A program made the position numbers and the translations under genes. Of a stretch of DNA of 35,211 nucleotides, positions 19,537-35,211 are shown in pieces. Below the pieces are notes generated by a model. The model was not told where the DNA came from and searched no databases. It worked only from the letters and a program-made list of their open reading frames with translations. Positions within the stretch are counted from its first letter, which is position 1, and every line of letters begins with the position of its first letter. The DNA lies in contig SVLL01000016.1 in assembly GCA_015067935.1 (NCBI GenBank), positions 1 through 35,211 of the forward strand, in the 5' to 3' direction. This DNA comes from Oscillospiraceae bacterium (GTDB lineage Bacteria > Bacillota > Clostridia > Oscillospirales > Oscillospiraceae).

Positions 19537-19673
19537 GCCGCCTTGCCTCCCTCTGAGGAGGGAGGTGGCATTTGCGAGAGACGAGCAAATGACGGAGGGA
19601 GAGATAGCAATCTATTTTCTCCCTAATCTGCCCTTCGGGCATCCACCTCCCTTTACTCAAGGGAGGCTTCAGA
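19537..19673. repeat. Palindromic element between eutH and eutB
   Basis: The left part reads GCCTCCCTCTGAGGAGGGAGG, then CATTTGC...GCAAATG, then GACGGAGGGAGAGAT. The right part reads TTTTCTCCCTAATCTGCCC...GGGCATCCACCTCCCTTTACTCAAGGGAGGC. It has the same arms as the elements at 2476 and 34709, with a short spacer. It abuts the eutH stop and ends 11 nt before the eutB ATG, so it is transcribed within the operon and could act as an RNA hairpin or partial terminator. Confidence 0.8.
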
Positions 19674-26163: not shown

Positions 26164-26240
26164 TGGGGTGGGTAATGGGACTCGAACCCACAACGCCCGG
26201 AACCACAATCCGGTGCTCTGCCAATTGAACTACACCCACC
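26164..26240 (-). tRNA. tRNA-His (GTG)
   Basis: The cloverleaf is complete on the minus strand: the acceptor stem GTGGGTG pairs with TACCCAC, the D-arm contains AGTTCAATTGGCAGAGC, the anticodon loop is TTGTGGT (anticodon GTG), and the T-loop is GGTTCGAGTC. CCA is encoded. A G at position -1 (26240) faces the discriminator C, as required for tRNA-His. It is the last gene of a three-tRNA transcript. Confidence 0.96.
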
Positions 26241-26259
26241 ATATTTAATTTGCTAAAAA

Positions 26260-26336
26260 TGGCACGCCAGGAGGGATTCGAACCCCCGACCTACTGCTTA
26301 GAAGGCAGTTGCTCTATCCTGCTGAGCTACTGGCGC
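26260..26336 (-). tRNA. tRNA-Arg (TCT)
   Basis: On the minus strand, GCGCCAG pairs with CTGGCGT, and the D-arm contains TAGCTCAGCAGGATAGAGC. The anticodon stem-loop CTGCC-TTCTAA-GCAG gives anticodon TCT (reads AGA), and the T-loop is GGTTCGAATC. CCA is encoded. It lies 19 nt upstream of tRNA-His. Confidence 0.96.
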
Positions 26337-26343
26337 ATTTCTA

Positions 26344-26417
26344 TGGAGCGGGTGACGGGAATCGGACCCGCGTATCCAGCTTGGAAGGCTGGTGTTCTAC
26401 CATTGAACTACACCCGC
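26344..26417 (-). tRNA. tRNA-Gly (TCC)
   Basis: On the minus strand, GCGGGTG pairs with CACCCGC, and the D-arm contains TAGTTCAATGGTAGAAC. The anticodon loop CTTCCAA gives TCC (reads GGA), and the T-loop is GGTCCGATTC. CCA is encoded. It is the first tRNA after the promoter and lies 7 nt from tRNA-Arg. Confidence 0.96.
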
Positions 26418-34507: not shown

Positions 34508-34538
34508 AAAAGCGGTGCAAATGGCGGGTGTCCGCAAA

Positions 34539-34582
34539 ACAGTTCCAGTCCCGGCAAGATTGCCTGCCGGGACTGGAACTGT
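34539..34582. repeat. Perfect 18-bp hairpin downstream of the ECF gene
   Basis: ACAGTTCCAGTCCCGGCA (34539-34556) and its exact reverse complement (34565-34582) flank an 8-base loop. No T run follows on either strand, so it is not a typical terminator. Bases 34583-34708 hold smaller hairpins (ACACCG/CGGTGT, GTGCGG/CCGCAC) and no gene. Confidence 0.8.
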
Positions 34583-34708
34583 ATATATTGCAGCCGCATG
34601 ATAAAATAACTCATATAGACCGATAAATTGGAATTTGTCGAACAGATAAAGGGCGCACTTCTATACACCGTTCGGTGTGGTGCGCATTGTGCGGCTTTGC
34701 ACCGCACC

Positions 34709-35161
34709 AAAGCCCCCCTTGTGTAAAGGGAGGTGGCACGGCGAAGCCGTGACGGAGGGATTGTTATGCAGAGAAAGAATAATAAACAGTTGATTCCACT
34801 GGCAAAGTATCTGCGAAGAGAAATGACCAAAGAAGAGCGTCATCTATGGTATGACTTTCTGCACTCCTATCCTGTCCGTTTCTCCTGACAGAAAGTGTTG
34901 GGGAAATACATAGCGGACTTTTACAGTGTAGAAGCTAAACTGGTAATTGAGTTGGATGGTTCACAGCACTACGAAAATGATAACATGGAAAAGGATGCTG
35001 AACGAACCGTTTTTCTGGAAGGTGATGGATTGAGGGTGATCCGAATACCCAATAACGAAGTCAGCAGGAACTTTCGTGGGGTCTGTGAGCACATCGATGC
35101 AGCGGTAAAACAATCCCTCAGTCAGCTTCGCTGACAGCTCCCTTTGCACAAGGGAGCCTTT
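34709..35161 (+). mobile_element. Palindromic element enclosing a DUF559 endonuclease gene
   Basis: The left arm (34709-34765) reads CCCTTGTGTAAAGGGAGG, then CACGGCGAAGCCGTG, then ACGGAGGGATTGTT. The right arm (35109-35161) is its approximate reverse complement: AACAATCCCTCAGTCAGC, then GCTGACAGCTCCCTTTGCACAAGGGAGCC. The gene lies exactly between them. The left arm supplies GGAGGGA as ribosome-binding site, and the right arm encodes the last residues and the stop. The same arms without the gene occur at 2476-2599 and, more diverged, at other sites. No direct target duplication is obvious. That the nuclease moves the repeat is inference. Confidence 0.7.
34766..35134 (+). pseudogene. DUF559 endonuclease-like gene with in-frame stop
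   Basis: The frame from ATG 34766 encodes MQRKNNKQLIPLAKYLRREM, then TKEERHLWYDFLHSYPVRFS, then TGA at 34886-34888. It resumes as QKVLGKYIADFYSVEAKLV and continues to 35134 (122 aa with the stop read through). DUF559 proteins are small PD-(D/E)XK, Vsr-like nucleases; the core is IELDGSQHYE followed by AERTVFLEGDGLRVIRI. The family usually has Arg before Gln at the stop position, so a single C-to-T change (CGA to TGA) explains the break. Restart at a downstream codon seems unlikely to give an active fold. Both gene ends lie in the arms of the palindromic element. Confidence 0.85.
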
Positions 35162-35211
35162 CTATCACCGATACACATCGCAAAAAATCCGACCTATGAT
35201 CGAAACCATAG

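Follow-up and report, generated by a model that had tools for sequence, protein, structure and literature searches.

A DUF559 gene between inverted double-hairpin arms

The window, that is, the whole stretch of DNA analysed here (positions 1-35,211 of the forward strand of contig SVLL01000016.1), belongs to an Oscillospiraceae bacterium (GCA_015067935.1, hereafter G000), whose 1.78-Mb draft genome is 79% complete, is spread over 70 contigs and contains six DUF559 matches. Near the right end of the window lies a small unit which reads, from 5' to 3', AAAGC, hairpins, DUF559 gene, hairpins, and CCTTT (Table 1). The left-arm tail, GGAGGGATTGTT, holds the ribosome-binding site, and the ATG at 34766 abuts this tail. 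The right arm contains the final codons (QSLSQLR) and the stop codon of the gene, and its CCTTT ends at 35161. Hairpin 1 of the left arm has one mismatch. A sequence-only reading of the window had already placed the arms, the gene, the ribosome-binding site before ATG 34766 and the stop codon in this way, and all of these positions were confirmed. The limits it gave for the unit, 34709-35161, fit the ends found across 24 flank contexts.

The DUF559 gene which that reading had described is present, but it is not intact. Because codon 41 is an in-frame TGA (34886-34888), with a first part of 40 codons before it, the window gene is broken. The assembly contains a second DUF559 copy, in two pieces at contig ends (L005, L002), which lacks a stop at that codon, and further relatives of the window gene without the codon-41 stop exist.

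The arm core ACAATCCCTCNGTCA, with at most two mismatches, occurs four times in the window versus 0.19 times expected, with a maximum of two in 100 shuffles. Chance or artefact as the source of the arms and gene was ruled out by shuffles and control stretches. The only Rfam RNAs found in the window were three tRNAs, encoded at 26167-26417 on the minus strand.

Table 1 Positions of the unit, its parts, the gene-less elements and the surrounding cassette in the window
Feature	Position	Strand	Remarks
Whole unit, inverted arms and DUF559 gene, 453 bp	34709..35161	+	conservation drops at AAAGC / CCTTT (65 loci, 24 flank contexts)
Left arm (type A)	34709..34765	+	terminal AAAGC, hairpin 1, hairpin 2 (34735-34753), tail GGAGGGATTGTT
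DUF559 (PF04480) gene, broken by in-frame TGA	34766..35134	+	stop 35132-35134
Right arm (type B)	35109..35161	-	tail 35109-35119, hairpin 2 35121-35135, hairpin 1 35137-35157, terminal CCTTT
Gene-less two-arm element, same arm family as window unit	2476..2600		
Gene-less two-arm element, arms like DUF559 copy L001	4219..4384		structure detector: one arm only
Gene-less two-arm element, apparently one arm each of two families	19541..19669		between EutH- and EutB-coding regions
Gene-less two-arm element, arms like DUF559 copy L004	25814..25954		
Gene-less two-arm element, arms like DUF559 copy L004	29617..29745		structure detector: one arm only
Larger cassette with DUF559 unit, between halves of terminator-like stem	34508..35211, past window end		

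By Pfam, the protein of the window unit has a DUF559 domain (PF04480), with REase_MTES_1575 below the cut-off and no other domain; a HUH/Y1 transposase domain was likewise not found by Pfam in the unit's own gene. In the 122-aa protein, D51, E62, D64, H68, and D77, which we take to be the EDxHD residues, are invariant in 42 aligned sequences. The AlphaFold2 model has a mean pLDDT of 90.5, and its top solved structure in Foldseek was 3hrl (N. gonorrhoeae NGO0050, E 1.3e-5), followed on ranks 2-3 by the catalytic domain of I-Bth0305I (E 7.1e-4, TM 0.65-0.66 by query length). Vsr appeared weakly, at rank 15 (E 0.17). The DUF559 protein has a predicted homing-endonuclease-like fold with invariant acidic and histidine residues, and one paper assigns a DUF559 gene to the EDxHD homing family (PMC9403480). 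Eighteen relatives were found among viral contigs.

The DUF559 protein is under purifying selection. Over codons 1-112, the median dN/dS was 0.057 in 399 pairs with dS between 0.1 and 1.2, none of them above 1; the choice of loci by protein similarity biases this value low, but hardly to 0.057. Internal stops were present in four genes of the best 80 (of at least 575).

Gene-arm linkage and the ends of the unit

The linkage between gene and arms was scored as the best inverted match between the 300 bp before and the 300 bp after the DUF559 domain, with a pass at 15 or higher. In the family, 20 of 33 loci passed, as did 6 of 13 further loci, five of which are weak partial hits, which makes 26 of 46 loci together. 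The fragments at contig ends, L002 and L005, were excluded from the arm counts. At class level, the score was passed by 12 of 18 loci, which are a subset of the class matches and include one with only 2 bases of flank. The own-genome controls gave five passes in 575 sliding stretches, three falling on DUF559 loci and the other two on a single GIY-YIG gene. Since this control detects arms only from a spacing of about 320 bp upwards, gene-less elements are not counted in it.

For the subfamily to which the window gene belongs, a scan of GTDB contigs with the protein of L049 retrieved at least 575 confirmed relatives, the best 80 of which were analysed. The sequence-only reading had tied its proposal to arms being common on homologs, and both inverted arms flank the gene in 74 of these best-ranked 80 (of at least 575). 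Together with the 26 of 46 family and 12 of 18 class loci, this means that the outcome named as refuting the proposal, homologs for the most part without arms, did not occur. Of the 1840 control stretches in the same loci, two have both arms, and one of the two is another DUF559 element. Every match in the 575 and the 1840 control stretches falls on a DUF559 gene, on the one GIY-YIG gene or on one coding region. Selection of the best 80 relied on similarity to a protein that has its last codons in the right arm, a mild bias which leaves the left arm and hairpin 1 unaffected. DUF559 genes without inverted arms by the score used were 13 of the 33, 7 of the 13 (the set with five weak partial hits), 6 of the 18, and six of the best 80; around the genes of L042 and L066 the arms are direct, not inverted.

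The gene also keeps its place relative to the arms, a point which that reading had proposed to check: across many genomes the unit has a fixed register. The start codon is found 3 nt past the tail motif at 67 of the best 80 loci (2-4 nt at 70), and the right-arm tail lies at a single codon register at 75 of the best 80. A detector relying only on structure (two hairpins plus tail), run on 37 family loci and counted from its list, found a forward arm up to 150 bp before the gene at 12 loci versus a reverse arm at 3, and, at the gene end or up to about 120 bp from it, a reverse arm at 17 versus a forward one at 5. It found zero arms in 74 kb of shuffled sequence.

The ends were analysed at 65 of the best 80 loci, those with hairpin 1 intact on both sides, representing 24 flank contexts. 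On the left, the letters of AAAGC are kept in 17-23 of the 24 contexts (17 at the last base); one base further out, the number falls to 10. At the right end, CCTT is kept in 21-24 of the 24, and the fifth base is T in 13. Similarity stops within one or two bases of the arm ends in these contexts. The best of 1568 combinations of offset and length, three bases shared in 5 of the 24 contexts versus 0.43 expected, is, as a best score from so many trials, no convincing target duplication, and the flanks show no target consensus across the 24 contexts.

Within the arms, hairpin 2 was counted with a pattern that does not fix its letters, in 67 left and 70 right arms of the best 80 loci. Its letters vary while the pairing is kept, with GC, AT, TA, and CG at the same positions, and pairs 4-7 are paired in 33-37 of 37-38 distinct left arms. 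Pair 2 is a G.A mismatch in 35 of 38 distinct left arms and T-A in 17 of 17 right arms. Inverted arm pairs consist of one A and one B arm in 71 of 75 cases, namely in 65 of the 69 whose core measures 150-600 bp (for the most part DUF559 loci) and in all six with a short core; the ends are therefore polar, and this polarity is common to the gene-less copies. Arm and protein relatedness, which the sequence-only reading had proposed to compare, are correlated between genomes (Spearman 0.43, reached in 0 of 500 permutations, for the 33 loci at which an inverted repeat was detected). The nearest protein ceases to predict the arm once protein identity falls below about 70%. Taken together, the nuclease gene and its pair of polar double-hairpin ends make up a single unit that is dispersed, under selection and fixed at its ends.

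Insertion sites, gene-less elements and nesting

Orthologous sites were compared between species by eye from aligned neighbourhoods, and the whole unit is either present or absent at them. At the site of DUF559 copy L004 (site G), the unit lies between the same two genes in G000 and G152; these genes lie close together, without the unit, in G109, G118, and G157, and have other palindromes between them in G110 and G130. The unit at the site of copy L006 (site F) is absent in G142, G109, G152, and G111, with another palindrome in G152, and a GIY-YIG gene is found there in G119, G116, G131, and G147, within its own inverted repeats in three of the four. The site of the gene-less element at 19541-19669 (site A) is empty in G109 and G101, and G152 carries elements at places that lack one in the window. 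Between two genomes of 93% identity, one gene-less element differs, its flanks being too diverged for base-exact ends. Same intergenic sites with different palindrome families are shared insertion hot spots. Further palindrome families (GTCATCCTGAGC; GTAGGGGCGACC type) lie at the same intergenic sites in relatives at L102:7522-7721, L112:7935-8150, and L098:8084-8180.

Arms without the gene had been described as scattered through the window. Five such two-arm elements are indeed present, but only the one at 2476 clearly belongs to the arm family of the window unit; the others are similar to the arms of other DUF559 copies in G000 (L001, L004). It had also been suggested that such copies are internally deleted derivatives. 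Gene-less copies are dispersed and share the left/right polarity, but as to internal deletion there is one possible case, L238, which is weakly supported inside the core. A near-identical gene-less element occurs within a longer repeat at seven places in G000 (L007, L010-L013, L015, and L017, with L013 at about 2440-2640 of the window), and several of these seven copies have a terminator-like stem, CCCCCAGC...GCTGGGGG, alongside.

The window unit itself sits within a larger repeated block, from 34520 to past the window end, which recurs within G000. The left half of a terminator-like stem lies at about 34508 of the window and the right half at 411-453 of contig C14 (L069:1-453), and because of this right half, C14 probably continues the window at 35211. 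In G079, a terminator contains a cassette of about 1.3-1.4 kb that carries a different gene and a DUF559 unit; four relatives of G079 have a terminator without the cassette (three of the four folded). The right motif of the cassette is present at 17 loci and both ends at 8; at 5 of the latter, the two outer halves pair with each other at a higher score than any cross-pair, although the left end was taken as the best-scoring of several candidates, which favours own-pair scores. The window copy is nested in a second mobile layer. Cassettes with inverted GGCGGGTGTCCGTAAAACAGTT-type ends and varied cargo were seen in rho-independent terminators at window 34508-35211, L069, L018, L222, L212, L214, and L232.

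A nuclease as proposed engine, rival readings and known systems

The gene has a fixed place in the hairpins and the unit is found at many unrelated sites in gut bacteria, and it therefore looks like a mobile element. With somewhat better than even confidence, we read it as a compact selfish element of REP/RAYT-like build, in which an endonuclease of Vsr/EDxHD fold would replace the HUH transposase and drive the movement. The nuclease would recognise the hairpin ends of its own unit, as cruciform or single strand, and in trans those of gene-less copies. It would cut or nick at the hairpin ends or at the target, and host repair or replication would then insert a copy of the unit. Hairpin 1 and the tail may provide the sequence-specific part and hairpin 2 the shape, with the left G.A mismatch and the right T-A pair in hairpin 2 possibly distinguishing the ends. 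The co-diversification of arms and protein, as well as the covariation in hairpin 2, point to the arms as substrate.

There is a real, if minor, chance that DUF559 is a passenger: the palindromes would be moved by another enzyme, from an insertion sequence or a host process, and the gene would have been captured between the arms and carried since. The arm census bears on this reading. The pattern of the arm family gave 370 matches in 100 family genomes versus 3 for a reversed control pattern, and genomes with matches were 22 of 33 DUF559-positive versus 15 of 67 DUF559-negative ones (p=2.5e-5). The arms in these 15 genomes without a DUF559 hit would suit a passenger, as would the surplus of gene-less over gene-bearing copies (66 arm matches and one DUF559 hit in G091). 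Six of the negative genomes have at least five matches, so that the gene may have been lost, may have been missed in drafts, or may be unnecessary. Against a carried gene speak a dN/dS of about 0.06, the joint diversification of arms and protein across several arm families, and the control stretches, which outside DUF559 genes matched only at one GIY-YIG gene and one coding region.

Against a passenger also stand DUF559 genes of other phyla, which are flanked by unrelated arm sequences. Such inverted arms were found on two Deinococcus plasmids (scores 47 and 20) and a Sphingomonas plasmid (24). A human-gut phage record has DUF559 with arms (score 25), and a second record scores 16 with a distant repeat. 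Below the arm threshold are the genes of Synechocystis (10) and Azospirillum (12), as well as an E. coli ycjD-like gene (9). On the two Deinococcus plasmids (L277, L278), the DUF559 units occupy different places in one hpa gene cluster. The ycjD frame of E. coli (L281) ends in a CACCCTCTCCC-type palindrome, with another just past it; these presumably resemble boxC repeats. E. coli ycjD was also tried as an empty/occupied test, the region being present in 3361 of 5426 genomes at a threshold of 80%. Both inspected genomes without the region have a different neighbour gene and hence do not offer clean empty sites.

We consider it improbable that DUF559 serves the host as a Vsr-like repair or restriction nuclease and that the hairpins are merely expression signals. 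The ribosome-binding site in the left arm and the terminator-like hairpin in the right would agree with such a role, as would weak PADLOC matches of DUF559 to restriction models and the Caulobacter DUF559 protein VsrA, reported as Vsr-like in a methylation context (PMC12907096). Against it stand gene-less A/B pairs of the same arms away from DUF559, the presence or absence of the unit at orthologous sites, and its outer ends in 24 contexts. Very improbable, finally, is a free-standing homing endonuclease which would cut intact intergenic sites and have the unit copied by homologous repair, the arms being not its substrate but recombination-prone ends or transcription signals: the predicted fold match to I-Bth0305I and the same intergenic site hit in different species, by GIY-YIG genes too, would fit, but the 24 unrelated flank contexts without a consensus appear to speak against a conserved cognate site, the arms co-diversify with the protein and covary in hairpin 2, and the 122-aa protein lacks the DNA-binding extension that EDxHD homing enzymes reportedly have (PMC3943268).

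The selfish, nuclease-driven element that we favour may have counterparts. Among single-domain GIY-YIG genes of the window's genus, 6 of 30 have inverted arms, from two other palindrome families, and 24 do not. GIY-YIG genes with palindromes are a parallel nuclease/palindrome system. Inverted GTCATTGCGAG...GTGGCAATC was seen round GIY-YIG genes at L071:4400-5160 (G000:C36), L107, L113, L114, L165, L167, L170, and L173, and GTCATCCTGAGC palindromes instead at L150 and L171. It is conceivable, at somewhat less than even confidence, that several unrelated small nucleases, at least Vsr-like DUF559 and GIY-YIG, are engines of their own hairpin-ended repeats across phyla.

If these readings are true, much "mystery" palindromic intergenic DNA of bacteria would be non-autonomous copies of nuclease elements, and their movement, primed by a break or nick, would involve no transposase. 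The system puts a different enzyme class, with conserved active-site residues under selection and at hundreds of loci, into a REP-like architecture. Part of Pfam DUF559 would thereby gain a function and abundant palindromes of gut Clostridia an origin, and the 122-residue protein and its cognate DNA are a directly testable pair. In the open-licence literature (titles, abstract starts, and passages), we found no paper linking DUF559 with palindromes.

Like MITEs, the gene-less copies are short inverted-repeat elements alongside a gene-bearing form, but unlike MITEs and insertion sequences, the DUF559 unit has no transposase domain and no convincing target duplication. With the EDxHD homing endonuclease I-Bth0305I, the protein shares the predicted fold and the invariant set of D, E-x-D, H, and D; the unit differs from this type by its palindromic ends, its many sites, and the lack of a DNA-binding extension. 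Vsr-like DUF559 proteins (Caulobacter VsrA, E. coli YcjD, and N. gonorrhoeae NGO0050, 3hrl) belong to the same domain family, and the E. coli ycjD-like gene, unlike the window unit, is without inverted arms by our score.

REP-type palindromes are common among bacterial genome repeats, and to our knowledge their only engines are HUH transposases (RAYTs). The sequence-only reading had called the unit REP/RAYT-like. This holds for its build, but because the HUH/Y1 transposase domain is absent, the unit is not a member. Where REP/RAYT has an IS200/IS605 HUH tyrosine transposase, the DUF559 unit has a nuclease of PD-(D/E)XK / Vsr-like type; each of its arms consists of a double hairpin and overlaps the coding frame, and its ends are AAAGC/CCTTT versus the GTAG tag described there (PMC3733652). 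Criteria given for REP/RAYT are a nuclease-type gene between inverted palindromes, co-diversification, and a correlation between gene and palindrome number (PMC2817692). As in those systems (REPtrons, REPINs), protein and palindromes co-diversify, here visibly down to about 70% protein identity, a nuclease-type gene lies between two inverted palindromes, gene-less palindromes are dispersed, and the presence of the gene correlates with palindrome number.
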